DNA of 64,000 nucleotides from Pholiota molesta. Its lineage: Eukaryota > Basidiomycota > Agaricomycetes > Agaricales > Strophariaceae. The translations under genes were made by a program, and so were the position numbers. The DNA lies in NCBI GenBank assembly GCA_014925825.1, contig JACGCK010000068.1:62001-126000 (forward strand), read 5' to 3'. Below the pieces are notes generated by a model. It ran no database searches. It was not told the DNA's origin and worked only from the letters and a program-made list of their open reading frames with translations. Positions 6,578-50,886 of the stretch are shown here, in pieces; the stretch's first letter is position 1, and every line of letters begins with the position of its first letter.

Positions 6578-8101
6578 TTAAACCACAAGATCGTCTCTAT
6601 CAGAGTACAAAATTCTAATGTTCAATGTTGGCGGTGAAAACACAATTTTCAAGGCAGGATTCATGGAAGAGCGAGGCATAAGCACATGGATATCGCTCAA
6701 TAGGTCAGAACCCTGATTGCTGAATAGGTCAAAACCATAATCATTACCACCTTCATCCGTGTCTTCATCTTCATCCGAGTGTTCTTCATCATCCGGGTGT
6801 TCTTCATCATCCGGGTGTTCCTCGTCATCCGAGTCTTCTTCATCATCCGAGTCTTCGTCAAAGGGAAAGAGCTTTAAGGACAGAGATTTCAAACTCGAAA
6901 ATTTGTCGGTGGAGAGGAGGCTGTCGAGATCCAGGAGGTCCTTAATCAGCGGCGACGGGTCGTCCGTTTGAAGTGTTATGCCAAGCTTTATTCCAAGGTG
7001 CGTCAAAAGCGGAAACGCGGGGGCGTTCTGCAAAATCGCGCCGGGGAGGTGGTGCAGAGGATTTTCGTCGTGCGCGTGCGTGTACCAAACCCGAAACCGC
7101 AACGTCTCCAGCGTCACCAACGCTTCTGGATGAACGGAGTTCAAGATATCAGAAAAGTTGGGATGAGAGGAGTATCCTGAACATATGCGATATCAGTTCT
7201 TTTCGTCTGAATTTTTGAGATCGGTGAAAAAAGATGACTTACGTTCAACAGATATATCTAGCGTCTTCAGCTGGCTCATCGTGGGCAACAAGCGATCCAT
7301 TGGTACTCCTTCATCTCCAGTGTCAGACGAGGATATTGTCGCCGAAAATGTCTCCAATTGGGACAAATCGAAGATCGGAAGCCCGCTATTCGGCCGGATA
7401 CCTTCAAGGATACCATCGACGGTGCTACGAGTCACCAGAAATGCCAACGACTTCAGCTGAAGCGGACGCGGATGGCAGACAACCAGCGGATCTGCTACAG
7501 ACGCCAAGGACACATCGGAGCCGAGGTGGAAAGTATGGAGGCAAGCGAGCGGATAAATTATCGAGATTGGGATATCCTGGTAGTGGTCGAAGTAAAGATG
7601 CGTGAGCGTATGCTGTTGCCGATGTACGAGGTCAACAATTGCCACTCGCAACGGCTCGTCCAAGCTATCCCAGCTCTCGAGTCTCCTCCAGGGTCCCCCG
7701 TAGTATTGATATCTAATATGCAGCTTCTCCAATCGATCGAATTTCTGCAAGAGCGGCAAGAGCGTCTCATCCACCGAATTCGAAGGATGCGGATAGAAAA
7801 CGAGCTCGCGGACGTATCCCGCAATCTCTGGGCTGCTCGCGACGAGTTTGGCTAGGTTCGCTGCTCCGATACACAGCGTCGATTCACGATTCTCGGACCA
7901 CGCAGGCGTATCAACGGCGATGTCCGCCCCATCGATACGCAATTTAAGACGGATCGCAGAGAACAAGTGTTTGCGACAGATATGCAGGAGGTGGCGGCAT
8001 GTTTGGGCGACGGATTGAATCGTTGCGAAATCAGGAGGGTCGCCATTCGCCAACGTGTCGATAATCGTATCCAAAGTGTCGAATGTAAGATCGCTCGACA
8101 T
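6578..8101 (-). CDS. F-box/LRR-like protein, Agaricomycete expanded type
   Basis: Two exons, 7243-8101 and 6578-7176, join across a GTAAGT...TTCAG intron in phase, giving about 485 residues. The N-terminus (LTFDTLDTIIDTLA, then SVAQTCRHLLHICRKHLFSA) has the shape of the F-box-like module of Agaricomycete proteins (Leu-rich helix, CR.L...CRKHLF). The rest is a leucine-rich pattern without exact repeats. F-box proteins usually recruit substrates to SCF ubiquitin ligases; that role is inferred from the family. The C-terminal exon carries a tandem acidic repeat (DDEEHP/DDEEDS). The frame continues upstream of 8101 without an ATG, so the ATG at 8101 (MSSDLTFD) is taken as the start. The Nup107 gene lies downstream on the same strand. 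Confidence 0.75.
6764..6862. repeat. 18-bp coding minisatellite in the F-box-like gene
   Basis: About five tandem copies of an 18-bp unit (TCTTCATCATCCGGGTGT type). On the minus strand it encodes a repeated acidic hexamer, Asp-Asp-Glu-Glu-His-Pro or Asp-Asp-Glu-Glu-Asp-Ser. Unit length is a multiple of three, so copy number can change without a frameshift. Confidence 0.85.
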
Positions 8102-26762: not shown

Positions 26763-27099
26763 ATCCTAGGTTCATAGAGTTTACGCCGGCGCCCGCTTCA
26801 TAGCTACATAACCTGGACTATCTCATGCCATTTTTTATTCATATTGGATCTTTGAAAGCATGTCTGTATCGTCTCTAGTAATTGTGATTAATTCTAGGCA
26901 AAATTTTCTAGCATTTCCCTCTTGTTTCCCTCTGCAGTGCTGTTGGTTATCGGAATTAAGAACGCTAATAAGCACCGGTTTAGATTACGATTCAGATAAG
27001 ATCGAAGGATACTGAAACCGTTGCCGCATCAGCCTGTTGATGCCATCATCGGAACGTCGGGGTGACCACTCCCGTCTCTTGCCACCCAACCACTTGCAT
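26763..27099. repeat. Lipase-TatD intergenic spacer, first copy of the duplicated unit
   Basis: Clearly homologous to 31705-31978. Shared stretches include ATAGAGTTTACG, GCTTCATAGCTACATAAC, ATGTCTGTATCGTCTCTAGT and CTAGCATTTCCCTC. It carries the lipase 3' UTR and the TatD promoter. Small indels separate the two copies. Confidence 0.8.
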
Positions 27100-27378
27100 G
27101 CTCTCCTTCTGCGTTTCTAGCAGGAACCTCGTCAGTCCACTACTCGTCCGTCACCGCCTCCTCGCCCGGTTGCTCAGCCAAGCCCAGCAAACCCCAAAGA
27201 CCAAAATGGCAAAGAAGAAATCCTCCACCCCAGCCGAAGAGCACCTTCTCCTCCCCGCGCCGCCATCCACGCTGCCCATCGTCGATACCCACACGCACGT
27301 GGCGTCGACGTACGAGTACTACCGCGGGCGGTACAAGGAGGGGAAATACACCGACGTGTACGCGTTCGTGCGCGCAGT
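27100..27378 (+). pseudogene. TatD-type DNase, 5' stump
   Basis: Same reading frame as the first exon of the full TatD gene at 31979: MLSFCVSSRNLVSPLL, then MAKKKSSTPAEEH, then the metal-binding DTHTHV and KEGKYTDVYAFVRA. Identity stops abruptly at about 27378, where the full gene continues with MYEGRGVEKV and this copy enters unrelated DNA. It lacks all but the first metal-ligand pair and cannot be an enzyme. The N-terminal 36 codons keep the frame of the full copy despite a 30-nt length difference. Confidence 0.9.
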
Positions 27379-29662
27379 CACGCTCGCCTTCGGCATCATG
27401 GCATCAATGAAACAATGACATTTGACCGGGCAGCTTCGCCATTCCCAGGGATTTCTAATTTTACCCACGGACCGATTTACACCGAAGCGACCGAATGAAC
27501 ACCGAATTACACCGAATGAGAAGCACGTGCAAAGTGCGTCATCTAACCGCGGGCCGTTCGTCCCACTCGCACTCCTTCGCACTTCCTATGCCCACAGCAC
27601 CCACGACCGCCAACGCGAATGAAGACGCGAATGGCAACACAAACGACAGCACGAGCGACCAACACGAACGACGATGCGGCCGACGGCGTGAATGACAGCG
27701 GGGCCCAGGCACTACGATGACGGTGACGGCCGCGTCTGCGAAGGCAGCGAGGTAAGTCCCCCCCCCCCCATCCGTTCACCCACTGACCAACACCGCTGCT
27801 TGCTCCAGCTCCCACCTGGCGGCAATTACGACGACGTGCGAGCAGCATCGCTCGTCGACGTGCTTGGCGCCACCGCCCTCCTCTCGCCGTGTGCCCCTCC
27901 CCTCCAACGAGGGATGTGGGCCGGCTGTTTAATTCAAGGCGATGTTGGCGATGGTACCGCCTACATCGCATATACCCCGCCCTCGTCCTCAGCATCCCCC
28001 TCAAGCACCTTCTCTGCAGCTACCCCAGCAACGAACGACATGGCAGGTTAGGATTGACGACGCCATCGCCTCGCAAGTAACTCGACGGCGAGCGGCGCGT
28101 TCTGGCTGGCGCCGTCCTGCTCAGCCCTCGTCTGCTGTGCAGCGACCGCGCCTGTCCGATCTCGTCTGCGTTATGCAGGAAACGCTGACAACGGGGGCGG
28201 TCAATACTTGCACGGCGGCACGAGCTCGCCGCTTACCATTCGCGGACGCCTGCGCTCACCCATTCCCGCTCTCCTCGACACCTGCCGACACATCGGCTGC
28301 TGACACGCACCTGCCGACTCTCGTGGCCCTGCGTTGTTTGTCCTGGATGGCGGCGTGCCCTTCTGGAAGGTGAGCAGAGATCTCTTCAGCGGAGGATTCC
28401 TTGAGACGTAGGGCGGAAGAATGTCAGAGGCGCGGACCGGCGACGAGGCAGACCGCAGACCGTAGACGGCAGCGCGGACGCCGTTGGCGCCTTGTGGGCT
28501 CCCAACCGACGTGCGGTGCGTTCTTTCTGGCGCTCTCCTCTCCAGCCCGTGGTGCACATGCTTGCTCGTTGGACGCCGCCGCCTGTCCCAGTCCCCTCCC
28601 GGAAGCTATGACGATGCCGCCTCCAACACCGCGCTGGCGCGGCTGCCTCCTCTAGTCCCCACTAAGCGGCTACGAGGACATCGAACGAGCAATGACCACC
28701 ACTGCGGCTGCCTGCTCCTGCTCCCCTCTCTGCGGCTACAACGACGAACGAGCGCCATCAATGTATTTACACATCCTGTTGTAGTATAGACAAATATATT
28801 TTATTGTTTGACTATACAAATGTACTTGAAGATGTTTTCTTTTGACAAAATTGCTACCAGGGTGTTACTTATCTTATAGCCAGAGATGCCAACACAAGAG
28901 CAACAGCACTGTATTACTATCAGTTGGCACAGAAGCATTTGGATGAAGCACTGGAATGCTGTATTGGTCCTTGTCAGGCCAGAGACTGGTATTGACAGCC
29001 CTGCTCAGAGAAATATACACTAGAACACTTCAATCTTCAGAGATTATAGTAGCCTGTTTTTGTATTATAGAGGAAATGTGATTGTACTAATTTGTAGATG
29101 TAAACTTGAATCATGAAAGAGGCATGTGCAATGACAGACTCTCGCTTCTATTAAAAAATTACCTGAGATGAAGTGTTTGTGAGTCTTATTCAGTCCCAAA
29201 CAACCTTCGTTGAAGGCCGTGCACTTTTCCTTCTCTAGAACTTGTCGGAAATACATCAAGAAATACATGCAGATCACTAATTTCAGAGATTGAGCCAATG
29301 TTATCTTCTGCTTTAAATTTTAGCACAATTTAAACTAGTCACAACATATAATTGCTGCCTATTGTCATTATTGTAGATCTAGCTCTAATTCTCTGCCACT
29401 GAGCGCCATATCAATTTTAATCCAATGTCGGTGAGCGCTTGGTGAGCGCCAATGAGGGAAATCCCTGGGCACTATTTTTGGGAACGGCCGGAATCTCCCT
29501 GGGCCAAACAACGCACCACAGGGGCTCTGGACCTCCCTGGGAATGACCAATTTTTCTTTGACCGTGACATGGGACAATGCTTATATAAGCTTGAACTTCC
29601 TTCTTGCTTGCTTCCTTCCAACTTCCCTCCTCCCTTACCGATTCTCGCTTTTATTCACAAAC
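27379..29662. other. Insert between the duplicated lipase-TatD units, left part
   Basis: Non-homologous DNA between the two copies of the unit. 27478-27530 has short ACACCGAA repeats. 27590-28760 is GC-rich and internally repetitive in a degenerate way (for example CTCTGCAGCTACCCCAGCAAC near 28012 and CTCTGCGGCTACAACGACGAAC near 28730). 28790-29360 is AT-richer with no gene. 29395-29550 has GGTGAGCGC and CTCCCTGGG direct repeats. I saw no transposase, long terminal repeat or inverted terminal repeat. Confidence 0.5.
29582..29588 (+). promoter_or_regulatory. TATA box of the HNH-domain gene
   Basis: TATATAA 75 nt upstream of the ATG at 29663, followed by a pyrimidine-rich leader (CTTCCTTCTTGCTTGCTTCC). 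Position and context suit a core promoter. Confidence 0.55.
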
Positions 29663-30963
29663 ATGACTTCATTGCCAGTGGCTTCCGACCTTCCTAAGAG
29701 ACTTCGAGACAACCCGCACGCTATGAGTGCGTACAATATCTGCTTGACGCGCGAGAGGGAGCTGGCCGACGAAAACGTTAAGGACATCAAAATGGATTTG
29801 ATCTACATTCGAATCCTTGGCTATCTTTTAATCTACGCGCCAACGGATAAAGCGGTTCATACGCTCTGCCTTGAGATCGTCTCCGCCGAACGCGAGGCCA
29901 CGGGTCGCGGGATTTTCGAGGTTGGGAAGATCTATTTTAATCATTATGTCAGAGCATGTATGTTGCCAAGGCTTCTTTGTCCAGTGTTCTATCTGACGCA
30001 GTCCCCAGTTCGATCCAACAAGGGTCGGACTCCTGTACTATCGAATCATGCATCTCGTCCCTCTTTTGATACAATAGCGGATATGATCAACGACACCTTG
30101 GAAGAAGCACCTCAATCTCGCGCCACAGCGAAAAGAAAGGTGAGTTTCATCCTTTATTGCCAAGAATCGTCACTCACTTTGACTGATTAGGCTCTTATCC
30201 GCGATGGTTTTCGTTGTATCATCACTGGAAAATACGACACAAACGGAGTGCTCACTGTTGGAGAGGTGAAAGCGCGGTATTGGGCGGAGCCGTCTCAGCC
30301 AGGTCTGACAATAACAGAATGCACACACGTATTCCCCGAATCCACCAACGCGAATATTGAACCAGGATCTGACAGAGTATGTGCCTACGTCCTCAACTTA
30401 GCTTTTGATATAATTATATTTCATAAAGCGGATGAACGTTGCATCGATGTGGGCCATCATGCAAAGATTCGGTTATACTGAGCTTCCCGATGAATTGAAA
30501 GGTTCCAACATTCACCGTTTGGAAAATGTGATGACCATCGAACCGGGTTTCCATTCACTTTTCGATGCATTACAGGTTTGGTTGGTTGCAACTGTGCGTC
30601 CAACAAGGCCCTCCGTCATTTGACTGATCTAACTTCTTATTTGGTGACACTCGCCAGGACACGAAGAACAAGTACAGGATCGAAGCGATAGATCCCATTC
30701 TCAAAAGAGGATTTCAATTGCCAGAATTCGTCACATTTACAACGGACGACCCCCGCAATTATCCAGTTACGTCACCAGACTACCTTGCTATCCATGCTGC
30801 ATGTGCCCCGGTAGCTCACTTATCAGGAGCAGCTGCCTGCATTGACAAGTTCTACCGAGACCTGGACGATAGCACGACACTCGATCCAAACGGTGCCTCG
30901 GCGGAGTTGTTGGAACACGCCATTGCTAAACTCCAGATAGCTGGATACCCGGTCGCTGCTTGA
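29663..30963 (+). CDS. HNH-endonuclease-domain protein, fungal type
   Basis: Exons 29663-29957, 30009-30139, 30191-30376, 30429-30593 and 30658-30963 join in phase to give 360 residues. Residues about 1-140 are a helical N-terminal region (YNICLTRERELADENVKDIK). The HNH-like core follows: ALIRDGFRCIITGKYD, then ITECTHVFPESTNANI (first His), then NIHRLENVMTIEPGFHSLFD (Asn, then His), the order expected of the beta-beta-alpha-metal HNH fold. A C-terminal LPEFVTFTTDD segment and SPDYLAIHAACAPVAHLSGA complete it. Such HNH_2-like proteins are numerous in Agaricomycetes and their biology is poorly known; nuclease activity is inferred only. The gene lies wholly inside the 3.8 kb that separates the duplicated lipase-TatD units. 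No disruption was seen. Confidence 0.85.
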
Positions 30964-31168
30964 GTAGTCGGCATTTTCATACCCTTTCAGAACATTTGTA
31001 CGCGGAGAAATATACTTTTTTCGCCTGAGGGAAAGGGAAAGGTACCCAGAACCGGGAGGTGGTGTTTCCCTGGTTCGGAGCGGCCATCACATCACTATCA
31101 CTATCAAAAATAAGTGATTTCAATTTTTTGTAATAAATCCAGCCTCTCTGCTGTTACTAGGCCTCATA
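30964..31168. other. Insert between the duplicated units, right edge
   Basis: HNH-gene 3' flank; no gene. Homology to the first lipase starts abruptly at about 31169 (TCTACCTCCCATTATTTGTG compared with TCTACCTCCCATTGTTTGTG at 26217), which marks the right breakpoint. Confidence 0.6.
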
Positions 31169-31704
31169 TCTACCTCCCATTATTTGTGCCGTCGGATGTA
31201 ATGTTCCGGATGATTGGGTATGGCCTACCAAGGGTACGTGTTCACTTTTTCCGTCCACAACCAAGCGTTAACGAAGCACGACATCATACAGGTAGGTAAT
31301 CCGGCCTTCGCTTCCTTCATCGACAGCAACGTCGACGTTACCCACGTAAACAACAAGCGAGTAATTTTCACTTCCAAATCAAGCACAGAATGACTGACCG
31401 ATATACAGGGAGAATTTCGTACCAACGCTTCCAGGGAGGTTCCTCGGATTCGAGCATCCTCAAGGGGAGACGCATATCCAAGATGACGGCTCGTGGGTTA
31501 CTTGCTCCGGGGATGACAACACCGATGCGAGATGCATGACCGGCGACGTCAAGAATATTCTTGAAGGCAAACTGGCTGATCACGACGGTAAGTTTCAGTC
31601 CTAAAATTTGTTCTTGCTGGGGAATAAATTATGACATGTGCTTATCAATGCCCGCAGGTCCATATGATGTTGTAGAGATGGGTTCTTCGCAATGTAGCGC
31701 GTAA
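31169..31704 (+). pseudogene. Lipase 3' stump, second copy of the duplicated unit
   Basis: Homologous to 26217-26762 of the full lipase, with introns at the same places. It reads LPLFVPSDVMFRMIGYGLPR, VGNPAFASFIDSNVDVTHV, FVPTLPGRFLGFEHPQGE, then DGSWVTCSGDDNTDARC and the same terminal EMGSSQCSA with stop. The signal peptide, oxyanion hole and GHSLG nucleophile are all missing. No internal frameshift or stop was seen in what remains, which suggests that the truncation is fairly recent. Confidence 0.9.
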
Positions 31705-31978
31705 ATCTTGGCCGCATAGAGTTTACGTCGTTCCCGGCTTCATAGCTACATAACTTGGACTAGTCTCATGCCATTTTTATTCTTTGGAAGTATGTCTGTA
31801 TCGTCTCTAGTAATTATGATTTTTCTAGGCAAAATTTCCTAGCATTTCCCTCTGCACTGAGGTTGGTTATCAGAATGCAAGCCGCTATAAGCGCCGGTTA
31901 GAAGGATACCGTTGCCGTGTCACGCCTTTTGATGTCACCAGAACTGGACGAACCATCTCTTGCCATCCATCCTCTTGG

Positions 31979-33744
31979 ATGCTCTCCGTCTGCGTTTCTA
32001 AGAGGAACCTCGTCAGTCCACTACTCGCCAATCTATACCTCCTGCCCATCTCCAGACGCCTACCTGCCCGGTCGCTCAGCCAAGCCCACAAACTCCCGAA
32101 GACCAGATCCCACCCCATGGCCAAGAAGAAATCCTCCACCCCAGCCGAAGAGCACCTCCTCCTCCCCGCGCCGCCATCCACGCTCCCCATCGTCGACACC
32201 CACACGCACGTGGCGTCGACGTACGAGTACTACCGTGGGCGGTACAAGGAGGGGAAGCACACGGACGTGTACGCGTTCGTGCGCGCGATGTACGAGGGGC
32301 GCGGGGTGGAGAAGGTGGTGGATGTGTGGTGCGAGGCGCCGGTGCGGGGGCTGTGGCGGGAGTTTGCGGATGCGGAGAAGGAGAAATGGGGTGGAATGGA
32401 GTACTTTTTCGTAATGGGTGCTTGGAATTTGTGTTTCTTTTCGTTCTTTTTGTATGGGAGGTTAATCGATTTTGATAGGTGTCCATCCGTGAGTTTGGTT
32501 GCCCCTTTGATTGCCCAAGGCCTTGTGTTGAACCTGTGGCAGCCACGAAGCGAAAGCGTATAACGACGACGTCGAGAGAGACATGTAAGTATCCTCTCGT
32601 TCAGTTTTTCTTTTCCCTTTTTTTTTTGGTCAAGTGTCTCGTGAATGGCAGCTGACCCGGTCAAGCCCCACTCACGCACTGTGACTGGACAATTTCCTCT
32701 GTATTAAGGAGGAATGTTGTATACACGCCATTTCGGCAATGTGGGATTCCAAGGTACACTGAGCTGCCTCCTCCAACTTCGCAGCTCAAACCTGCCTTAC
32801 GGCCGGTGTACCTCGATACCCACTGAACCCTCAGCCTGATGGACCCAATTGTCCATCAGGTTTTCTTCATTATGCAGAATACCAGTCCACGTCTTTAGGA
32901 CTGTGGATTCCTTTACCGACTTAGTTCTGATTTCGTGTTCAGTATGGTAGTCTTTTCTTCGCTTCCTTATTGACTGTTATATTCCCATTACTTCTAGTTT
33001 GGAAGCCATGGCGCATCCACGATGCGTTGGATGGGGCGAGATGGGTCTCGATTACCACTACGACAACTCGCCTCGCGAAATTCAGCAGGAGGTCTTCGCG
33101 CGCCAACTGAGACAAGCTGTCCGCCTGAAGAAGCCTCTGACGATTCATACGCGCGAGGCGGATGCGGATACTGAGCGCATTTTGAAAGCGGAAGTGCCGA
33201 AGGATCATCCGGTATGCTATGTCATCTAGTCGCTCTCTCTCGCTGATATCATTCATTCGCAGATCCACATACATTGCTTCACAGATTCCCCAGAATTCGC
33301 TGGGCGTTTGCTAGAACATTTCCCTAATCTCTACATCGGCATCACCGGTACGTTCCCTCCTCTCTCACGAACATCCAAAAACTAACGTAAACCACAGGCG
33401 TCATCACATACGCCACCAACCTCGACACCTCCACCGTCATCCGTAACATGATGACACCGCCCACGCCCGAAACCGATCCTTCCTCCCTGCCGCTGCGCAT
33501 CCTCCTCGAGACGGACGCGCCGTACATGGTCCCTGCGAACCTCTACGACGACCTCCCCGCGATCAAGGGCAAGAAACTCCCGGTGTGCCACAGCGCGATG
33601 GTGCCGTGGACCGCGCAGTTCGTGGCGGACGTCGCGAACGGGGGCGCGGGCGGCGCGGGCGCGGGGCCGACGGAGGGGCGGTGGACGGCGGATGGGGTGA
33701 TGCGGGTGGCGAGGGAGAATGCGCGGAAGGTGTATGGCGTTTGA
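31979..33744 (+). CDS. TatD-family metal-dependent hydrolase/DNase, probably with a mitochondrial presequence
   Basis: TatD-type TIM-barrel metallohydrolase (amidohydrolase superfamily; known members are 3'-5' exonucleases in DNA repair or turnover). Metal-site motifs in order: DTHTHV, then GVHPHEAK across two introns, then GWGEMGLDYH with its Glu, then KKPLTIHTRE, then HIHCFTDSPE, and finally LLETDAPYM with the Asp. The set is complete. The frame is open from ATG 31979 and the first 46 residues are rich in Arg/Lys/Leu/Ser without acidic residues, like a mitochondrial targeting peptide; a second ATG at 32117 (MAKKKSS) would give a cytosolic form. The intron at about 32586-32998 is some 410 nt, far longer than any other here, and carries a perfect 10-bp hairpin. 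The stop is at 33742-33744. Confidence 0.9.
32835..32860. repeat. Perfect 10-bp inverted repeat inside the long TatD intron
   Basis: Arms CCTGATGGAC and GTCCATCAGG around a 6-nt loop, followed by TTTTCTT. In a bacterium this would be read as a terminator; in this intron it is more likely part of a small inserted element that lengthened the intron. Confidence 0.7.
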
Positions 33745-40000: not shown

Positions 40001-40795
40001 GAGAAAATTGGGACAGCCGCAAAAATACAGCCGCTTGCCTTGTACAAGTAGACAACAGTACCTGGAATGCAACACGCGACAGACGATAATAACTTTCCAT
40101 TTGCGTATAACCTACGCAGACATGAATATGCGCTAATGTCCAATATGTTGGTTCCAAGTACACGAAACGGGTATCACCAACATCTAGTCGCATATACCTC
40201 ATTTTACGACTGAACGGGGAAATCTTGATATCCCAGACATGCATGCCGTCCCAGTGTAACCTGTCCAGCATTTTACCCTGATGTAAGAATTGAACCACAT
40301 ACCGCATTCCAATAAACCAGACCGGTGTATCCTTGCTTATTCCAGCTTAGTTTCGCAGCTGTGAGCAGCTATAGTGCATAAGTGGCATTAAGATTAACCC
40401 GCAGAGGATCGACGTTGCCCTATCAGCCGCCAGCGCTGAAGTGCTGAAGCCTGAGATATTGCTGAGATAGACCGAAAAAAAGCCGAAAAAGCGGGAGTGG
40501 TGAAGACGACACAAGACAAGTTGGCAAAGAATGATATCGAAATAAGGAAATAAGAATCAAGCACATTTATGACAAGACTCGGAGTGGTTTCAACAATAAT
40601 AAAAAGGAAAACAAAGCGACTCTGAATTGTTGCTGATTTTCATTTGATGCCGATTCCCGAAATCGGAATTTGAACTGGCACGTGCAAATTAGCGTGATGT
40701 AACCTGATGTAACGTTCTTGGATTCTGTCGCGATCTGTTTTCGCCGCTTCTTCGTGGGGTATAGTGCAGGGCAAAAGGACTTATATGAGACGGCG
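37096..40795. other. Gene-poor region with weak minus-strand frames
   Basis: No complete gene. Minus-strand frames with hydrophobic runs occur at 38156-38513 (ALVAVSVTVILF) and at 39727-40307 (SLGTIFLILAGIGI). They might be pieces of a membrane-protein gene, but I could not build a continuous product with sensible splice sites. 37590-37650 has a short GTGAGTGAG block. The rest shows neither repeats nor RNA genes that I can recognise. Confidence 0.3.
38889..38934. repeat. TAGGG-type short tandem tract
   Basis: Eight or so TAGGG units in GGTAGGGTAGGGTA runs with interruptions. The unit is 5 bp and not the 6-bp TTAGGG of fungal telomeres. Confidence 0.7.
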
Positions 40796-41109
40796 CATGC
40801 AAGCCAAACACACACGGTACATGCCGCCAAACACACACGGTGCATGCAGCTATGGAGCACCCGGGACATAGCTACCTTAGTCATACTAGTACTACACTGC
40901 ACGCAAGTAGATTATAGATTAGAAAATACAAAAACAGGCCATATGAATGCCCTGGTATGCACGCTGCGCAGGATCCACAGGAACAATGCGACGCGTCGGC
41001 ATGGTGCATGCGCACTAGGCGCGCAAACCAGAGAATAAGAAAATAAAACCTAGTAAATAATCAAGATAGAGTATACAGCAGATAGAATAATGGTATATGT
41101 ATATGCATA

Positions 41110-41960
41110 GATGGGCCACGCAAGCGATCCGGTGCATATAAACTGGATGGAGGATGCGCGAGCGATCCAGTATATATACACTGGATGGAGCCCGCGCGAG
41201 CTATCCAGCGTACATATACCAGATTGACGCCGCGCAGCTGGTCGCGTGAGCCATCCAGTATATATACACTGGATCGCCTGCGCCGCCTCCATCCAGTGTA
41301 TGTATACTGGATCACGCGCGGCGTCAATCCAGTGTATATATACTGGATTGACGCCGCGCGGCTGCGCGATCCAGTGTACATACCGCGCGGCTGATCATGG
41401 AGGCCGCGTGAGCCATCCAGTACATATACACTGGATCGCTTGTGCCCGCCTCCATCCAGTGTATGCATACTGGATCGCGCGCGGCGTCAATCCAGTGTAT
41501 ATATACTGGATTGATGCCGCGCGGTTGCGCGAAGCAATCCGGTAAATATTCACCGGAATGGTGCCGCACGAGCAATCCAGTGAATATATACTGGAATTGC
41601 GCCCGCGCGTATGGGCAATGCTGCGCGTGCGCTGGCGTTCGATATTGCAGTGCGTTCGCTCGTTGGCATATGATATCATGAATAAAATAACTGCTATGGC
41701 GGCGCTCGGATGCGCGCGAGCGCACGCGCCGCATTATCCCATGCCAGCGCGGGCAACATTCCAGTGAATATCCACTGGATTGCTCGTGCGGCACCGATCC
41801 AGTGAATTCGCACTGGATGTGTGCAGTATACCACATCCAGTGAAATTTCACTAGATGTGTGCCCGCTGTACACATCTGGTGAAATTTCACTGGATGTGCG
41901 CAGAATACCGAATCCAGTGTTATTTCACTGGATTGTCCGCCAACACCGGTGTTTCCACTC
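41110..41960. repeat. Array of small palindromes, left arm
   Basis: About 17 copies of a 22-24 bp imperfect palindrome of the form CCAGTGnnnnnnCACTGG, flanked by AT on the left and AT or AA on the right. Starts are near 41122, 41167, 41199, 41251, 41290, 41328, 41369, 41414, 41452, 41490, 41535, 41573, 41758, 41797, 41834, 41871 and 41910, so the usual step is about 37-40 bp. Linkers between units are 12-20 bp and GC-rich (GCTCGTGCGGCACCG type). The centre of each unit is AT-rich (TATATA, AATTTC, GATATT). A gap at 41600-41755 contains GC-rich sequence without units and has a counterpart in the right arm. Confidence 0.92.
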
Positions 41961-43185
41961 AACATCCCGCCGTGGGATATTGCCTAATTAGGGTGCGCGC
42001 TCCACCGACTGATGCGCGTGTGCGCATCCATCCTCCTGCCTGTTGGCACAGAGAATGGGCTCCAGTTCAATCCATTTACCTTCGTTCCTCTCGAATTTTA
42101 GCACATAGATAGGCATAATATATAGGAGTACTAATATATACATATTTAACGAATACACACCAGGCTATCTATCAAAAAGAGAGGTTTCTTATGGCTGGGG
42201 AGGGGGAGCAGAGGGAGGTATATGCCTTAAACACTTGAGGACTCTTATATAAAAATATAAATAATATCTATACTATACAAGGTAATTATCTGCTGAGCTA
42301 TAGCTCCCCAGGAATTGATAGAAGTGACCCATGGGGAGATCTAGAGGGAGGGTGTTATAGGGCATGAAAGCAGAACATTACAATGCCCTCAGTGTCAACT
42401 TAATAAGTGTACATTGTATATTATACTTATTTAGCTTGATATATGCAGCCAGAAGTGCCATAGATACAATTAATCCACTCCTATTGACTTATCTACCTAT
42501 GGATACATTAGCCTATATCTCAGCACCAGACAGAAATATATTGCTAGTCTCTTTGGATTAGGGCTCTCCCATGCTCTAGCTATCTATTAATATCGCTAAA
42601 ATATAGCTAAAAAGGTTGGAACATGTAGATAAAGGCCCCTAATGAGGCTTATCATCCTGATACATATATATAATGATATATAGAATGTATATATTTATTT
42701 CTGTGGATATACCAACGTAGAATGATACTATATGGCATCTACATTAATTTCACCGAGCAATAATAATATTTTTCCGGTTGAAATGGGTCAGGAGGAGGTG
42801 AAATATGCCAAATACGTCTAAAAGACGTATTCAGCCTATAGAACTACAAATAAGTGCTCTAAAATTCTGTAAAGCTAGGATAGAATAGCCCTCATAAATA
42901 CCTACAGAATGAGCTCTTCCAAAAAATGATCTAATGATTTGGTGGAAAGATAGAAGATATTGAGTTGCTCGTTTGCGACCAGAGTATGCGACCGTATGCG
43001 ACCGTATGTAATCGTGAAATACTTGAAATACTTGAAATGACTATAAAGCTACAAATATATGTTCAGAAATTCCAAAAATTCTTGGTTAGATAGGTCTAAT
43101 GAATATCTACAAAACAAGATATGCCGGAAGAAGATTGAGCCAGAGGTGCAAACGATATGAAGAAAATATTTTGATGAGCACCATT
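41940..43185. repeat. Long inverted repeat, left arm (inner part)
   Basis: The reverse complement is found at about 43200-44290. Landmarks are CACCGGTG at 41944, GGTGCGCGCTCCACCGACTG near 41990, ATTTAACGAATACACACCAG near 42143, TGGGGAGGGGGAGCAGAGGG near 42195, GAGCTATAGCTCCCC near 42294, GGCATGAAAGCAGAACATT near 42361 and GTCTAAAAGACGTATT near 42817. The arm is AT-rich and has no long ORF. An extra partial copy of the innermost sequence (AAACAAGATATGCCGGAAGA near 43120) makes the left inner end partly duplicated. Confidence 0.92.
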
Positions 43186-43199
43186 TGAACATGATCCAA

Positions 43200-44290
43200 A
43201 CATAGTTCCATAACTGTGACTTGAGTGGTCGTGATATATTTTGATGTTCTAAACATTGTTTCTCTCATATCTTTCTAAACTCTGGCTCGATTCTTTTCCG
43301 GCGTATCTTGTTTTGTAGCGATTTATTAGGGTTATCGTATCCTAGCTTTACAGGTTCTTAAAGTACGTATTTGTAGTTCTATAGGCCAAATACGTCTTTT
43401 AGACGTCTTTGGCATGTTTCAGCTCCTCATGCCCCATTTCCACAAGCAAAATACCATTATTACTCGGTGAAATTGATGTATGTATTATTTAGTATCCTTA
43501 TACATTGTTATATCTGCTCAAATAAATTTATACATTGTATATATGTTATATATATTCATTAGGATGTTAGCCTTCAACAAGTGCCTTGATTTATGTGTTC
43601 CAACCTTTCTAGCTATATTCTACCGATATGAATAGATAGGAAGTCTTGGGAGAGCCCTAATCCAAAGAGATTAAGAAGATATCTCTCCCTGGTGCTGAGA
43701 TATAGGCCAATGTATCCACAGGTAGATAAGTCAATAGGAGGGGACTAATTGTATCTATGGCACTTCTGGCTGCATATATCAAGCTAAATAAGTATAATAT
43801 ACAATGTACACTTATTTAGTTGACACTGAGGGCATTGCAATGTTCTGCTTTCATGCCCTATAAACCCTCCCTCTAGATCTTTCCATGGGTCACTTCTATC
43901 AATTCTTGGGGAGCTATAGCTCAGCAGATAATTACCTTGTATAGTATAGATATTATTTATATTTTTATATAAGAGTCCTCAAGTGTTTAAGGCATATACC
44001 TCCCTCTGCTCCCCCTCCCCAGCCATAAGAAACCTCTCTTTTTGATAGATAGCCTGGTGTGTATTCGTTAAATATGTATATATTAATACTCCTATATATT
44101 ATGCCTATCTATGTGCTAAAATGCGAAAGGAACGAAGGTAAATGGATTGAACTGGAGCCCATTCTCTGTGCCAACAGGCAGGAGGATGGATGCGCACACG
44201 CGCATCAGTCGGTGGAGCGCGCACCCTGATTAGGCAATATCCCGCGGCAGGATGTTGAGTGGAAACACCGGTGTCGGCGGACAATCCAGT
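43200..44290. repeat. Long inverted repeat, right arm (inner part)
   Basis: Mirror of 41940-43185. Reading in reverse, the same landmarks occur in the same order at about the same spacing: AATACGTCTTTTAGACGTC near 43391, AATGTTCTGCTTTCATGCCC near 43840, GGGGAGCTATAGCTC near 43908, CCCTCTGCTCCCCCTCCCCA near 44004, CTGGTGTGTATTCGTTAAAT near 44054 and CACCGGTG at 44268. Divergence between arms is visible (point changes and small indels), so this is not a recent perfect palindrome. Confidence 0.92.
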
Positions 44291-45440
44291 GAAATGACAC
44301 TGGATTCGGTGTTCCGCGCACATCCAGTGTAAATTCACCGGATTGCTCGCGTGGCACGCATCCAGTGAAATTTCACTGAATTTGGTGTTCTGCCCACATC
44401 CAGTGTAAATTCACTGGATTGCTCGTGCGGCGCCAATCCAGAGAATATCCACTGGATTACTCGCACAGCTCCATTCCGGTGGATATTCACTGGATTGCTT
44501 GCATGGCGCCATTCCAGTGTATATCCACTGGATCGCTCGCGCGGCGCGCCGGCGCCATGCAAGTTATTCAACACACAAGCGCACGCCGGCACACGCACCC
44601 CAATGTCGCACGCGCGCGTACGCGCCGGCGCCGTATCGCCCTACGTGCGCGTACACGCTGCACTGCCCCATGCGAGCGCATGCGCTGCATTGCCCCACGC
44701 ATATGGGTGCAGTTCCAGTGAATATCCACCGGAATTGCTCGCGCAGCACTGTTCCAGTAGATTTCCACTGGATTGCTCGTGCGGCAGCAATCCAGTAAAA
44801 ATCTACTGGATTGCTCACACAGCAACATCTGGTGACCTTTCACTGGATTGCCTGCGCGGTATGCATCCAGTGCAATTTCACTGGATTTGGTGTTCTGCAC
44901 ACATCCAGTGCAGATTCACTGGATTCATCGCTTGCCGCACAATATGGTGTAAATTTACTGGAATAGCGTCTGCGCGCATGGGCCAATGTGGCGCGTGCGG
45001 CAGCGCGGCATGTACGTGCGCGTGCACTCGCGTGGCATATATAACTGCAATGGTGCCACGCGAGCGCCATCCAGTGGATATTCACTGGATTGGTGCCACC
45101 CTAGCAGTCCAGTGAATTTGCACTGGATGTACGCCATGCAAGCAATCCAGTGAATTTTCACGGGATTGGTCGCATGTGGCTCATTCAGTAGATTTCTACT
45201 GGATTGGCCATGTGGTGATGATTCAGTGTAATTGCACTGGATTCCTCGTCCATTGCGTATCCAGTATAATTCTACTGGATTCTCGCGCAGGATACATCCG
45301 GTAGAATTGCATTGGATTCCTTGCACGGCCGCATTTTGGCCAGTCCCGCGCTACATTTTCACTGGATCCCGGGCGCGGCCGCATAGCCACTGCCGCGCAC
45401 GTCGCTCATCCATCCAGTCGCACACGGCTCATCCAGTACT
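44280..45440. repeat. Array of small palindromes, right arm
   Basis: About 21-23 further copies of the CCAGTGnnnnnnCACTGG unit, starting near 44283, 44320, 44357, 44396, 44434, 44471, 44510, then after a gap 44711, 44751, 44788, 44824, 44864, 44902, 44939, and after a second gap 45066, 45105, 45140, 45180, 45218, 45256 and 45293, with broken units to 45440. Step is about 36-40 bp. Several linkers match the reverse complement of left-arm linkers, and the GC-rich gap (GCATTGCCCCACGCATATGG near 44690) matches the reverse complement of the left gap (near 41605), so the arrays are part of the same inverted repeat. Confidence 0.92.
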
Positions 45441-45834
45441 TTCTTCACCCAGTTTAAATATTATTAAATGTCTTCTAGTGATATTAAATGTATTCCAATA
45501 ATATTGATATTCATACACAATGTTATATACAATGTAAAGCAAGGGAAGGGAAAGCTGAACCAAGCCCTGTGATATCTATATCGGAGGTGGCGGTGAATGT
45601 CCTGGGTGCATTTGGCAGAGATGCACCGTGTGCACATGAGCTGCGTGTACAGGGTGCATTTGGCATGGATGTACATGGTGTTATACCGTGTTTACATATG
45701 AATGATACTCGTTCTTCGTCGACTCTTCGAGCCTCTTTGCCCAGTCTTTATCAACGGTTTTGCAGTACCAAATCAATATACAAGCCGCAATTCGTTCAAT
45801 CTTGCCATATATTCATCTCTAACTCTGACATAAC
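45441..45834. other. Flank between the foldback-like element and the otubain gene
   Basis: TTAAATATTATTAAATGTCT and ATATTAAATGTATTCCAATA are AT-rich repeats next to the last palindromes. 45598-45690 has two copies of GGTGCATTTGGCA with GATGCACCGTG or GATGTACATGG. A loosely related inverted sequence (CACACACGGTACATGCCGCC) lies near 40808 on the other side of the element, so these may be its true outer ends. The promoter of the otubain gene must lie at the right end. Confidence 0.4.
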
Positions 45835-47402
45835 ATGACTCAAACACCTCCGACACCAAGTAGGTCACGTCCTTGAAATCGATCATGGGCAGTTCTACTT
45901 GAACAAGATCCTTTCGACTCAACAGCGAACATCCGCAGACCGAAGGCGCTGCCTCTTGACTCCGACACAGAAGACTACAACCCTCAAGACGATGTTCAAA
46001 GCGACTCACCACTACCGCCACTGGACCTTCCGTCTGCCAACAATCTATTGAATTTCGCCAATCCAGGTTCGTCATAATACTTCAAGCTTCAGGTCGTGGA
46101 TAATCTACCACCTATAAATAAATGTCTGCATCTAGATTCCTCACTTTCTGGCCTGACACCTGCTGAATTGTACGATATGAACCAGGCAAGATATTTAAAC
46201 GCTGAATTGCCACATGCTAACTTCATATCAGGAGCTTTACAACGACAGTGTTCCTGCGCGGGCGTTAATCGAGTCGGTAGCACCAATGACCGAATTGCGA
46301 AGTGAATACGAGAACGGCTCCATTGCGTTCGTCAAGCAAATAGACTGGCTTATGGACAAAGGATTCAAGTTCGTCAGACGTACCCGAGGTGCGTGTCTTT
46401 CGTATTTATTCTACAGGTCGAGTATACTCACACATGACTTAGGGGATGGGGATTGCTTCTATCGCTGTGATGACCTTCTGCCGTTACTTCCTTACTCCCT
46501 TGCTGACCAAATGTGCCCAGGGCGGCATAACTATAACCTACAGCCATCGGCTTCGCGTATATCGATAATCTCCTCTCTCTCCCGCATTCTGAACGCGATA
46601 CGGCAGTCGCAATCGCTCTCTCCCTTCTGGACACCACGCCTAGTATCTTGGATAACGCGGGGATTGAGAAACTAGTATATGAAGACTACTATGACGTATT
46701 CAAGGAACTCGTGGAGAAAGTTTCGACAGGGATGACAGCAGAAGTCTTGCTCGAGACCTTCCAGAACGCTGAATGTGCGTCATGTTGCCAACTTTATGAG
46801 ATTAATCTACTGATATGGGCAATCTAGATTCTAATTCCGTCGTGCTCTATTTAAGATTACTCACCGTGCGTAAAATGCTCCCTCATTCGCATGTTCTTTA
46901 GCAACTGAGCGTTTTTTGGAATTTATACCAGTCAGCTCAAATTCGCCTCAATCGAAGCAACTATGACGGCTTTTTGGTTCACCCTGACACGAAAGAACTC
47001 ATGGATGTCGACTCGTTCACGTCAAACGTCGTACAAGCTATGGGCAAGGAAGCTGGTGCGTGTTTAATCTAAAGATAAAACTGTCATCACCTTTCATTGA
47101 ATGCTCTTATCCAACATCGCCCACAGATAATGTTGAAATCGACGCGCTGTCAAACGCGTTGAAGCTGAACCTTGATCTTGCATACCTCAACGGTGTGGCG
47201 CAGGATGGGCACGTTGATTTCATTCAGTTCCGAAACGATTTGGACGTAAATAAACAGGCGCTGGTGCTGCTGTATAGGTACGTCGCCGTCCCCCCTTACC
47301 ATTCTACCGAATCATTGGTGTTGCGGTATGTACTCATGGCGTTATTCTTTTTTCTCGTGTAGACCGGGACATTATGATATTCTTGTTAGAGATTCTGTCT
47401 AA
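45835..47402 (+). CDS. Otubain-type deubiquitinase (peptidase family C65)
   Basis: Cysteine protease of the OTU/otubain family that cleaves ubiquitin chains (OTUB1 prefers Lys48 links). Exons 45835-45859, 45926-46066, 46136-46185, 46232-46388, 46443-46466, 46544-46774, 46828-46865, 46932-47055, 47127-47277 and 47363-47402 join in phase to give 326 residues. An acidic N-terminal tail (LDSDTEDYNPQDDVQSDSP) is followed by LTPAELYDMNQELYNDSVPA, FKFVRRTRGDGDCFYRS with the catalytic Asp-x-x-Cys, IDNLLSLPHSERDTAVAI, YDVFKELVEK, VVLYLRLLTS, then VLLYRPGHYDILVRDSV with the catalytic His. The GDGDCFYR motif is encoded by a 24-nt exon. The third intron starts with GC instead of GT. Catalytic residues are intact. 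Decayed fragments of a related copy lie at 9.8-11.9 kb. Confidence 0.9.
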
Positions 47403-48186: not shown

Positions 48187-50886
48187 ATGTCGACTCTACC
48201 CCCCAACAATGCTTCCGAAAATCGCGAGGAAACTCTCCTTTCGCTTTGGAGGTCAGAATATCCCTTCGAACATGGTTGGCTACATTTTCAATGACAAGTT
48301 CTTTAACAGCAAAGCCGGAGGGTCGAATCCGAATGTCCTGAAGTAGGCCACTCAGCTACACGTTGTATTTCTCATCTTGATAACTCAACTCTCTCTATCT
48401 CTAGCCCGGCAACGTATAAGCCCCCCACTGTAATTTCGAGGTTCGTTTCCCACTGTACCGCTATGACTTTACGTCTTATCCTGATTTAGGTCGAAGGCGG
48501 GTCTGTTTGCGCTTCTCATTGGCATTAATTCCTACCGTTCGGAGACCTTGAAGCCTCTCCGAGGTGCCGTTCCCGACGCATTGGCCTTCCAGGAATATCT
48601 CGAAAAAGACCTTGCGATTCCGCGCGCGAACATTCAGACACTCATAAATAGATCGGCCACAGGCGCTGCTATTATTGAAGCGTTAGGTCGTCTCAGGGAT
48701 GATTCCCGGATCTCAAAAGGGGATCCAATACTCATTTTCTACGCGGGTTATGGCGGCGAGACGCAATCGTCGAATTCCCCTTCATCCGCAGACCGATGTA
48801 TCATTCCTTACGACTATTCAGAAAATCAGGCACATGAAATTTCAGCGATTGGACATCGGGCAATAGCTTCCTTAGTTTCCCAAATTGTCGAGACGAAAGG
48901 CGACAATATCGTGAGTGGCACATTATAGCATCTTAACTTACGTTATTGACGCGTCTTGCCAGACCCTTATTTTCGATTGCTCGTATTCGCCACCTTCTGT
49001 CAGTCAAGGAGCCGACGAATTTTCCTCGGCACGAGTGCGATCTGCTCGATTGAAATCACTTGGACCCTTGGGCAGCGAGCTGGAACAAAAGAAGGTTTGG
49101 AGAGCCGATGAGAAACCGGCGCTTGGAAAGTCATGTTTTCCCGAGGAGCCTCCGTACATTTTCATATCCGCCTGTAGCCCAACCGAAGTCGCAAGAGAGA
49201 CTCACGGACGTGGCAATTTTTCGAGGGCCATTCTCAACCTTCTTCGCCATTCATCCCCGCACGAACTGTTATATTCGGACCTGGTTTCGCGGATAGATCA
49301 AATTCCTGGGTAAGGCCTAATCATGTTCTATTTCTATCTCTGTCGCAATCTCTGACGAACGCCATAGTCAGACTCCTCAATGCGTAGGCCGCCACGCGAG
49401 CAGAAGCTTATTCGACGCCAAGGTCGCGGTGACTCAACGGACATGTTTTCATCTCACAAATTCTAATAAGCAGCTCGTTCTTCATGCTGGAACGATACAT
49501 GGGATCACATCAGGGGCAGAGTTCACCATACACTCCAGTGACGATTACTCTTTCGACGCACCCCTAGGCCGGCTACGCGTTGATTCGCTGGGCGCATTCT
49601 CGACTACACTCACGTTCCCCATATCATCTGATCCCTTCGCTGTTCCCGAGTCTGCTCTAGCGCTTCTGGCAAAGGTTGGTACGCTGGAAGATATCAGGTT
49701 CTACATTCCACTCGAGAATCGCCTCCTTCCTTGCTATCAAGCACTGGTCGAACTCATGCGCGGAAGCCATGCAGAGTTGGAGAACATAGTTCTGGTAGAT
49801 TCTCCACGTAAAGCCCACATCGAAATCGCAGAAGAGAACGACATGGCCATCTTCCTGATCAGAGACGAACGCATAACGCAGTACGGACTCACACGCCTAT
49901 GCGATGGGGTGGAGCTGACCGTCGAGGCTATAATTCCCGTGCTCAAGGCCGCTGCTCATTACTACTGGAAAATCAACAGGACGAACGCAAATACTGATAT
50001 TTCGACGAACATTGAGGTCGATTTCTACAGATTGGAAGATCTGTCATTGGACACGGATAGCTTTGGGGCTTCGGAGCTGGTGCCTAGCGGCTCTTCTCTT
50101 TACCACAACAATACGGTCGAATTCGTTGTCGAGGAGGATTGTCCGTACGGGTTGAAGTTAACAAACAACGGCCCCTACGACTTATATCCATACATGTTTT
50201 ATTTTGATAACAGTGATATGAGCGTTGGTGTGTCCTATTTTTTTCGATCGATTATATACCTCTCATTAACGTATATATTAGGCGCCTATTATCAACCTCC
50301 AGTAAATGAGGAGCATCCGCCCCCTCCATTGAAGAAGAACGGCGGTACACTTACGATAGGCTACGGATCTGGAGGGGCTGCACCGTTCGCATACTATCTT
50401 CGCGATAATCAAGATCTCGACGTCGGCTTCCTTAAACTATTCCTTGCTACTTCCCTTGTGGACTTGTCGAACATGCCCCAGTCAACACCTTTCGAAACAT
50501 CGCGCTCAGCTGACAGATTCGCGAAATCGACAAAAGACACCTGGAGCACCATCCTCATCCCTGTCGTTCAACATCGGTTTCCACCCAATTCGAAGCCATG
50601 TCCGAAATGCGGCCACACTATCTTCGATGACTCCAAAGCCAGTGCGATCGCCCTGAAAGAGGAGAACGACGAGCTCAGACGTGAGCTGGATGATATGGAG
50701 GCCGTCGTCGCCCAAGAACGACAACGAATCAAGGATGAGAGGGAGAGTTTCACCGGCAAGTTGAAGTCGATGGAAGAGCAAATGGCGGAGAAGGAGCTCG
50801 CTGCCAAATCACCATCTAGGAGAGTGTCGATATTCAAGGTATTTGTGATCAAGTTTCGTAAGGCGCGCTATTGGTGGCCATGGTAG
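48187..50886 (+). CDS. Caspase-like (peptidase C14/metacaspase-type) protein with both catalytic residues replaced
   Basis: Exons 48187-48251, 48310-48342, 48405-48440, 48490-48910, 48963-49309, 49368-50227 and 50282-50886 join in phase to give 788 residues. The p20-like fold is clear: SKAGLFALLIGINSYRSETL, then LRGAVPDALAFQEYLEKDL, ISKGDPILIFYAGYGGE, ISAIGHRAIASLVSQIVE, KGDNITLIFDCSYSPPS, then YIFISACSPTEVARE and GNFSRAILNLL. Active members have SGHG and a DxCHSG motif. Here His is Tyr132 (AGYG), and the Cys-His pair is Ser192-Tyr193. The C-terminal 450 residues contain VEEDCPYGLKLTNNGPYDLY, a GGTLTIGYGSGGAAPFAYYL block common in Agaricomycete caspase-like proteins, a CPKCGH zinc-knuckle-like motif and a coiled coil (LKEENDELRRELDDMEAVVA). 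The last intron is 54 nt with no stop, so it can also be read through. Confidence 0.88.

Follow-up and report, generated by a model that had tools for sequence, protein, structure and literature searches.

What kind of element holds the long palindrome in this 64-kb stretch of DNA (the window), and what keeps its two arms alike? A preliminary description saw a foldback-type element there. We conclude that a non-autonomous KDZ (Kyakuja-Dileera-Zisupton) transposon is the likeliest identity, rather than a foldback element strictly so called.

The mobile unit and its copies

The element had been placed at 41100..45440 (4.3 kb). Homology with dispersed copies, in a comparison made on one strand only, and target-site duplications give a wider mobile unit, 40756-45711; several analyses took its start as 40757, one base inside the true start. 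Its parts are as follows.

40748..40755, no strand: left target-site duplication TTCTTCGT, identical to the 8 bases after the right end
40756..45711, + strand: whole mobile element, 4,956 bp, where homology with dispersed copies ends; ends GGGGTATAG... and ...GATACTCG
40756..41098, + strand: 5′ terminal region of unique sequence, with 88% identity to its counterpart in the relative C96
41127..41933, no strand: subterminal array on the left, made of 16 units of a 22-bp palindrome and interrupted by a GC-rich gap near 41600-41757
41774..42930, + strand: left arm of the continuous inverted repeat; its outermost part includes array units
41960..44260, no strand: conserved hairpin core (module), common to other element families; edges good to some tens of bp
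42931..43330, no strand: central part, whose middle (~43092-43290) contains the fold point that the families compared share
43331..44443, - strand: right arm of the continuous inverted repeat
44284..45317, no strand: subterminal array on the right, made of 20 units of that 22-bp palindrome, with two GC-rich gaps
45452..45711, + strand: unique 3′ terminal region, 86 to 92% identical to C96, C124, and C40 and 82 to 83% to five family-B copies (query 45440-45711)
45712..45719, no strand: right target-site duplication TTCTTCGT

Other copies with recognizable ends and duplications were what the preliminary description had proposed to look for, and they exist. Both ends are present at at least seven places in the genome, plus the 18.5-kb relative C96, and a genome search found six other copies 94 to 97% identical to 41100..45440. 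A perfect 8-bp target-site duplication flanks all seven copies, the other six duplicating different sequence; the element has moved in the past. Copy counts throughout are lower bounds, with at most the best 40 candidates scored per search and the 324 matches of one genome search listed in part. That the palindrome is a product of assembly or of chance, as had been considered for an artefactually duplicated arm, is practically inconceivable and already refuted, because the seven copies lie on seven contigs, with different flanks, their own duplications, and internal differences.

The view of the element as non-autonomous holds up well. No frame of at least 90 aa lies wholly within 41984-44104, and neither of the element's two longest frames, which lie in the arrays, has a match among Pfam families. 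Among the 42 window frames of at least 150 aa, searches of Pfam (22 frames) and NCBIfam (10 frames) gave only a sub-threshold otubain match.

An internal palindrome between subterminal arrays

The inner arms are inverted, as had been described, with five arm pairs at 72 to 97% identity: 41874-42353 with 43864-44343 (97%), 42355-42571 with 43647-43863 (94%), 42580-42673 with 43546-43639 (80%), 42676-42931 with 43289-43544 (79%), and, innermost, 43089-43183 with 43242-43336 (72%). From these coordinates, the fold point lies at ~43.11 kb for the main arms and at ~43.21 kb for the innermost pair. Aligned with its own reverse complement, the whole element is 65% identical (41 to 43% in five mononucleotide shuffles). 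On the left side, from ~41773 to 42868, identity is 76 to 100% per 100 columns; outside ~41.77 kb and on the partner side it is 37 to 71%, with many gaps. The proposed fold-back of the whole interval thus stands for a continuous inverted repeat at ~41.77-44.44 kb but fails for the outer parts, and no continuous anti-diagonal runs across 41.1-45.4 kb.

The array unit is a 22-bp palindrome of the type ATCCAGTG-N(4-8)-CACTGGAT, spaced at ~38 bp; with a stricter unit pattern, 26/26 matches of the 64-kb window fall inside the element. The outer arrays and their GC-rich gaps had been taken for inverted copies of each other. We do not read them so: the arrays match equally well direct and inverted, and the gaps score 33 and 41 direct versus 34 and 37 inverted, all four above 200 shuffles. 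Because each unit is itself palindromic, the arrays look inverted in either direction. Arrays of the same units are found in the larger relatives C96 and C124, and we regard them as candidate transposase-binding sites.

Beyond the arrays, the terminal 345 and 265 bp have in common only a ~75-bp gapped patch in inverted orientation (score 40, where none of 200 shuffles exceeded 25), and terminal inverted repeats (TIRs) of KDZ1-3 length (139 to 241 bp) are absent. The tips, GGGGTATAG and CGAGTATCA, are hardly similar.

A coding relative

The relative C96:19590-38069 (18.5 kb) has the same ends, 88% and 86% identical, and its own 8-bp duplication, CCTGCCAG; in the 5′ terminal region, it differs from the window element by 27 substitutions and 2 indels (MAFFT pair). 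Two 10-kb pieces of it contain 29 and 23 array units. Domain reading, which covered C96 outside 27001-32500, found a strong CxC4 domain (PF18717, E 2.3e-47) and, in a frame starting ~0.4 kb after the CxC4 frame, a weak KDZ match (PF18758, E 1.8e-4; 21.7 bits versus the Pfam curated cut-off of 26.6). The C96 site is not among the 128 matches listed in a genome search with PF18758. The 3′-end relative C124 has CxC4 (9.5e-47) and then KDZ (5.7e-4) in the same order, the KDZ match again under the cut-off at 20.1 bits. Within the stretches examined, the 5′ end of C124 was not found, nor did two family-B copies show their 5′ ends or duplications. Our KDZ assignment is made because C96 joins the same ends, the arrays, an 8-bp duplication, CxC4, and the weak KDZ match.

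The hairpin core in other families

The core recurs in at least five other families, with arms 58 to 86% identical and, in most, quite different ends; the AT-rich core was not found in C96 among the matches listed. Also among these matches, at least 29 places have both arms, one (C49) has a single arm, and three are rearranged. In family F, all 18 arms of nine palindromes are 919 to 921 nt long and 85 to 100% identical to the query arm. In families A, C, D, and F, the edges of the core coincide to within some tens of bp, and family G carries rearranged core pieces. Duplications judged by eye were seen in families C (2/2), D (2/2), E (2/2), F (3/4), and G (2/2), with one doubtful 5-bp duplication in F2. 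Counted together, at least six families carry the core; their ends are of about four kinds, and their duplications measure 5 to 9 bp.

The fold point is identical in six families, and within each of the six, the left and right arms group as sisters in a tree. Comparison of copies (six of the seven A copies; C70 was left out) reveals conversion tracts. The core arms evolve in concert.

No transposase was identified for the other core carriers. For a coding partner with the C-type end, the matches in C79 and C615 span only ~80 bp, and a 7-kb stretch of C79 has no self-inverted repeat; short matches to F- and G-type tips occur in C456 (49 bp) and C91 (36 bp). A 19-base core word has no match in viral contigs. 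Among the papers listed in literature searches, titles and abstract openings mention neither a shared hairpin core nor palindromic KDZ elements.

Indels are rare between families. Three family pairs, chosen from 15, have 647 substitutions to 9 indels, compared to 195 to 20 in chosen controls, made up of three terminal pairs of 16 plus one G pair. Some control pairs lack indels: at the 3′ end, window element-C124 (26:0) and window element-C40 (24:0) were left out, as was, for example, C96-C52 (42:4). Family G is not a wholly independent control, because rearranged core pieces are present in it. The indel deficit depends on alignment; a gap-cheap pairwise alignment produced many more gaps, with 8 between the A and B left arms and 86 between the F and F2 left arms (another F copy).

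Coding, RIP, and RNA

Several readings of the core were tried and rejected. A coding core, or an inverted pair of protein-coding genes, is contradicted by stops in every frame (10 to 25 each, for the left arm in six families), by the lack of 3-base periodicity, and by codon-wise conservation with z above 3 in just 1 of 42 windows (z 3.7). RIP fared no better: ts/tv is 0.89 to 1.58 in 30 comparisons and TpA/ApT 0.92 to 1.09, with no great C-to-T excess. No known RNA family reaches its gathering score in the window, and no tRNAs were found. A MIR8562 match at 43103-43322 (34.3 bits versus a cut-off of 211, E 0.00067) was read as a match to hairpin shape.

If transcribed, the core would give a very long hairpin, in agreement with the preliminary description: the predicted minimum free energy (MFE) of the 2,320-nt core is -1605 kcal/mol, and in 870 of 1,013 pairs the partners lie more than 400 nt apart. 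Local structure in the arms scored z -3 to -7.5 versus column shuffles in several of 30 windows; in the two stretches inspected, pairs had changed on one side only, and we make no claim for it. Arm mismatches in 15 elements, among which same-family copies are not independent, number 416 for A.C versus 459 for G.U, or 316 versus 327 without the central 360 nt. Because A.C is about as frequent as G.U, neither strand is clearly selected for pairing.

DISCUSSION

Taken jointly, it is probable that this is a non-autonomous KDZ transposon moved in trans and carrying an older, selected non-coding core. The element has the ends and the arrays of 38-bp palindromic units of the larger coding element C96, whose transposase would presumably cut and paste it in trans, leaving 8-bp duplications. 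Where C96 has its coding part, the element has a palindromic non-coding core of ~2.3 kb, and the one common fold point indicates that this core is older than the families carrying it. Arm-to-arm gene conversion keeps the two core arms alike, and the length of the core is guarded as its letters drift, presumably by selection on a cis-acting or RNA-producing transposon module.

Two other histories of the element deserve consideration. A foldback (FB) element, with ends made of long inverted repeats of short tandem units, would account for the presence of long inverted repeats and of tandem arrays and for past movement; yet the long inverted repeat is internal and stops short of the ends, with the terminal 345 and 265 bp mostly dissimilar. 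The arrays on both sides are subterminal and not collinear inverted copies of each other, and they recur in C96 and C124; a CxC4/KDZ-type relative has both ends plus the arrays. FB elements make a 9-bp duplication, which is absent here, where 7/7 copies have 8 bp. We therefore consider the foldback design originally proposed very improbable. One can also envision that a palindromic transposon, the present core, jumped once into a KDZ array, both now being co-mobile. The core was indeed not found in C96 (among the matches listed) and does lie inside elements with other ends. We nevertheless doubt such nesting: by eye, no terminal repeat or duplication is seen at the core/array junctions, the junctions here lack the tips proper to the other families (CACCT, TACGGT), the palindrome of families A and B continues into array units, and A, C, D, and F have matching core edges, within some tens of bp.

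That leaves the question of why the core persists. We favor a selected non-coding cis-module, with selection the suggested cause of the length constraint. Indels might be rare instead through their removal by arm-to-arm repair, which seems to us somewhat unlikely. Arm-to-arm conversion is directly visible, and young A copies carry indels, up to 12 per pair; six chosen recent-copy pairs (two of 15 A pairs plus the C, D, E, and F pairs, with the C567 A pairs, which have 9 to 12 indels, omitted) show 410:16 versus 647:9 between families (p 0.013), so that indels are commoner in recent copies. However, the unpaired center is also indel-poor (F-F2 92:0, C-D 54:2, A-B 100:3), and the palindromic outer ends, at 94:5, are not clearly so, although the comparison of center and outer ends (p 0.15) is not decisive. 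It is less likely still that the core is kept since a hairpin transcript would feed Dicer, with small RNAs that might silence or protect transposons. The predicted hairpin is extremely stable, and places with both arms (at least 29) far exceed the single-armed one (C49) and the three rearranged ones; against this, there is no clear pairing selection on either strand in the 15 elements, and the indel-poor stretch reaches into the unpaired center.

Returning to the selected module, we propose tentatively, at somewhat less than an even chance, that a ~2.3-kb non-coding hairpin may be an exchangeable cassette of fungal DNA transposons, its length guarded by selection. One would expect a non-autonomous transposon to decay freely in its interior; in this case the conserved part, across families with different ends, is the middle and not the ends, and it shows ordinary substitution, few changes of length, and no sign of coding. 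If the cassette exists, transposons of different superfamilies would share a functional part, perhaps one related to RNA or replication. Should this pattern hold in other mushrooms, it would point to an unrecognized functional part of DNA transposons and offer a natural system for arm-to-arm gene conversion in mobile palindromes.

Among known systems, the element resembles the KDZ superfamily (KDZ1 of Cryptococcus, Zisupton-1_PGr) in its fungal host and its 8-bp duplications, which the available parts of PMC12730594 and PMC12810828 report for Zisupton and KDZ1. The same parts describe KDZ1-3 as coding elements of about 9 to 11 kb with cysteine-cluster plus KDZ domains and TIRs of 139 to 241 bp (PMC12730594, PMC12810828). 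The coding relative here likewise pairs a cysteine cluster with a KDZ match, weak and below cut-off, whereas the inverted end match is short and patchy. TIRs are not universal in KDZ, because Kyakuja families without them are reported there (PMC12730594, PMC12810828). The 38-bp palindrome arrays and giant hairpin core receive no mention for KDZ in the available parts of PMC12730594 and PMC12810828. A further difference from the members covered there is that the coding relative has CxC4 in place of CxC1.

With FB, Galileo, Tm1, and Tetris, the element shares long inverted repeats, tandem units, and non-autonomous copies. The inverted repeats of these foldback and foldback-like elements are terminal, whereas the hairpin here is internal, bounded by unrelated ends. 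Foldback is a structural label across superfamilies, Galileo going with P and the Mutator-like Tm1 duplicating mostly 9 bp, according to the part of PMC3169594 available. Like MITEs, the element is non-coding, has ends in common with a coding element, and occurs in multiple near-identical copies. MITEs are usually under about 0.6 kb, in contrast to the 4,956 bp here. Finally, as in sex-chromosome palindromes, for which the available part of PMC7023750 describes arm-to-arm homogenization by gene conversion, the arms are homogenized against each other; those palindromes, however, bear genes, whereas this one belongs to a mobile element.

Results

Homology between the window element and other copies begins at 40756 (GGGGTATAG) and stops at 45711 (GATACTCG), and both ends occur together at at least seven places in the 65.6-Mb, 625-contig assembly (C591, whose positions 62001-126000 are the window, and contigs C298, C43, C70, C58, C567, and C608). 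All seven copies are flanked by perfect 8-bp target-site duplications, each different from the others: TTCTTCGT, GCAGTAAC, GAGAATGT, GACCATCA, CTTCATGA, GTGGGACA, and ATGAATGG. A preliminary description had reported a foldback-like palindrome at 41100-45440, within this element. Judging by match coordinates, the C43 and C58 copies are rearranged, with the match broken in the array region, as is the C70 copy, in which an internal piece is repeated.

40756-45711: mobile element, 4,956 bp
about 41960-44260: core, an AT-rich noncoding hairpin module
46199-46675, a short way beyond the right end of the element: frame matching otubain (Peptidase C65) below threshold (E 4.2e-5; 23.6 versus 24.3 bits)
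49321-50886: frame whose best named match is a Pholiota conissans caspase-domain protein (62% identity); an unnamed JGI protein matches at 91%

Inverted-repeat comparison of the window showed that the arms first noted are real. The continuous inverted repeat proposed for 41.1-45.4 kb holds between about 41.77 and 44.44 kb but not over the remainder. The outer arrays and their GC-rich gaps, described as inverted copies, are indeed alike when inverted, but equally alike in direct orientation; for the arrays, this is because they are made of 22-bp palindromes (spacing about 38 bp; 16 units left, 20 right), and the gaps are likewise alike in both directions.

No frame of 90 or more amino acids lies inside 41984-44104, and the element's two longest frames gave no match in a Pfam search, in agreement with the earlier view of a nonautonomous element without a transposase. 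Together with stops in the frames and a codon-wise conservation scan, the lack of such frames rules out a coding core; the substitution pattern rules out a RIP-mutated one. At gathering score, no known RNA family was found in the window, one weak match falling below it. The local RNA structures inspected in the arms gave no two-sided compensation, and there was no clear sign of the G.U versus A.C mismatch asymmetry expected from selection on a hairpin transcript.

The core recurs elsewhere in the genome; counting the window element, both arms are present at at least 29 places (a manual count over several searches). Four further places are single-armed or rearranged: C49 and, from family B, C1:206-208 kb, C36, and C615.

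Table. Element families with the hairpin core: family (contigs); places with both arms (lower bounds); ends and duplications (those of C to G read by eye)
A (window element and copies); 7; ends and duplications as in the text
B; 2; A-type 3' end, 82-83% identity
C (C196, C411); 3; starts CACCT, 8-bp duplications
D (C329, C336); 5; starts CACCT, 8-bp duplications
E (C500:129 kb, C18); 2; 9-bp duplications, arms only about 390 bp
F (C190, C148, C61, C101); 9; starts CACCT, 7-bp duplications in three of four
F2 (C500:215 kb); 1; starts TACGGT, one doubtful 5-bp duplication
G (C28, C467); core only as rearranged pieces; starts TACGGT, 5-6 bp duplications

When families C, D, E, F, F2, and G were compared by blastn over their outer 150-230 bp, none of the 15 pairs matched. 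Isolated matches to the family G tip (C91:32838-32873; 36 bp, 100%) and the family F tip (C456:272925-272973; 49 bp, 90%) mark possible partners of those end types. At C223:994797-995040, F-arm pieces 536-676 and 815-921 are joined directly (89-92% identical), with no other arm match among those listed there.

Families A, B, C, D, F, and F2 resemble one another in sequence at the fold point, so the palindrome is older than these six families, which differ by 14-42%. A stretch of some 200 bp next to the fold point (window 42898-43092) occurs on the left side only in A and on both sides in B; C, D, F, and F2 seem to lack it. In a tree of arms, each of the six families has its left arm as the sister of its right arm. 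Arm identity varies along single elements, from 97-100% in some stretches to 74-90% in neighbouring ones. At 168 informative sites in six A copies (C70 was left out), there are runs where the two arms of a copy agree in allele and differ from the two arms of another copy; at 42126-42162, for example, 9 of the 10 sites show the window copy and C608 homogenized in one direction, and C567 and C43 in the opposite one. These runs are direct evidence of arm-to-arm gene conversion.

Indels are rare in the core. The left arms of family pairs A-B, C-D, and F-F2 differ by 647 substitutions and 9 indels, compared with 102:6 in KDZ (Kyakuja-Dileera-Zisupton) termini (Fisher P = 0.012) and 93:14 in the G pair (P = 1.4e-7), controls that we chose ourselves, some other control pairs having no indels. 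The counts depend on the alignment, a gap-cheap one yielding many more gaps, and identity in some 30-column windows of F-F2 is as low as 23-33%, so that indels there could go unseen. The unpaired centre, likewise poor in indels, gave 100:3 in A-B (one indel of 202 nt), 54:2 in C-D, and 92:0 in F-F2, and the palindromic outer ends, left versus right in five elements, gave 94:5. Arms differed from outer ends (P = 0.027) and centre from controls (P = 0.0007); P was 0.15 for centre versus outer ends and 0.26 for outer ends versus controls. Recent pairs (410:16) were intermediate (P = 0.013 versus deep pairs, 0.006 versus controls), and one-base indels do occur among A copies, above all C567. In nine F palindromes, each of the 18 arms extends over 919-921 nt and is 85-100% identical to the arm used as query. 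The larger arm length changes between families are few and of 9-10 nt, about one helical turn (near 42648-42698 and 43538-43587); one 10-nt change is present in both arms.

At C96:19590-38069, an 18.5-kb element bounded by its own duplication (CCTGCCAG) has 5' and 3' ends 88% and 86% identical to those of the window element and the same kind of palindrome arrays (two of its 10-kb pieces hold 29 and 23 units). The two pieces examined match the window element in ends and arrays only, and no core match in C96 was among those listed in genome searches with the whole element and with one arm. The C96 element codes for a CxC4 cysteine cluster (E 2.3e-47), the protein having its best match in P. molesta (46%); a frame starting about 0.4 kb beyond matches the KDZ transposase weakly (E 1.8e-4; 21.7 bits, under the 26.6 cutoff). 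The region noted for this pair is 7450-8052 of the C96 stretch L034. The P. molesta match and that of the frame at 49321-50886 point to an agaric mushroom, probably close to Pholiota. The C124 element has a 3' end 91% identical to that of the window element and the same CxC4 and weak KDZ pair (6865-7485 of its stretch, L036); it may span about 26 kb, its 5' end having been looked for and not found. In both elements, further array units occur close to the coding region, perhaps in introns (L034 8221-8297; L036 7568-7944). A genome search listed 128 KDZ transposase-domain matches, several of them in sets of equal score, and the C96 site was absent among them.

Discussion

We propose that C96-like elements make a KDZ transposase that would recognize window-type ends, and perhaps the palindrome arrays as well, and that could move the window element in trans, the core being carried along. 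The arms are homogenized by conversion. Core length appears to be guarded while the sequence drifts, and indels would most simply be removed by selection on a spacing-sensitive noncoding module; a repair bias that removes core indels in place of selection remains a rival account of the same rarity. Taken as a whole, the explanation by a nonautonomous KDZ element, mobilized in trans, with an older, selected core and arm conversion, seems to us a good deal more probable than otherwise; we go no further because the KDZ domain match in C96 is weak and below the cutoff.

With that reserve on the domain evidence, the ends and arrays shared with C96, its CxC4 and weak KDZ matches, the richness of the genome in KDZ domains, and the 8-bp duplications lead us to call the window element a probable nonautonomous KDZ element. 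Zisupton and KDZ1, both KDZ transposons, are reported to have 8-bp duplications (PMC12730594, PMC12810828), the same length as those of the window element.
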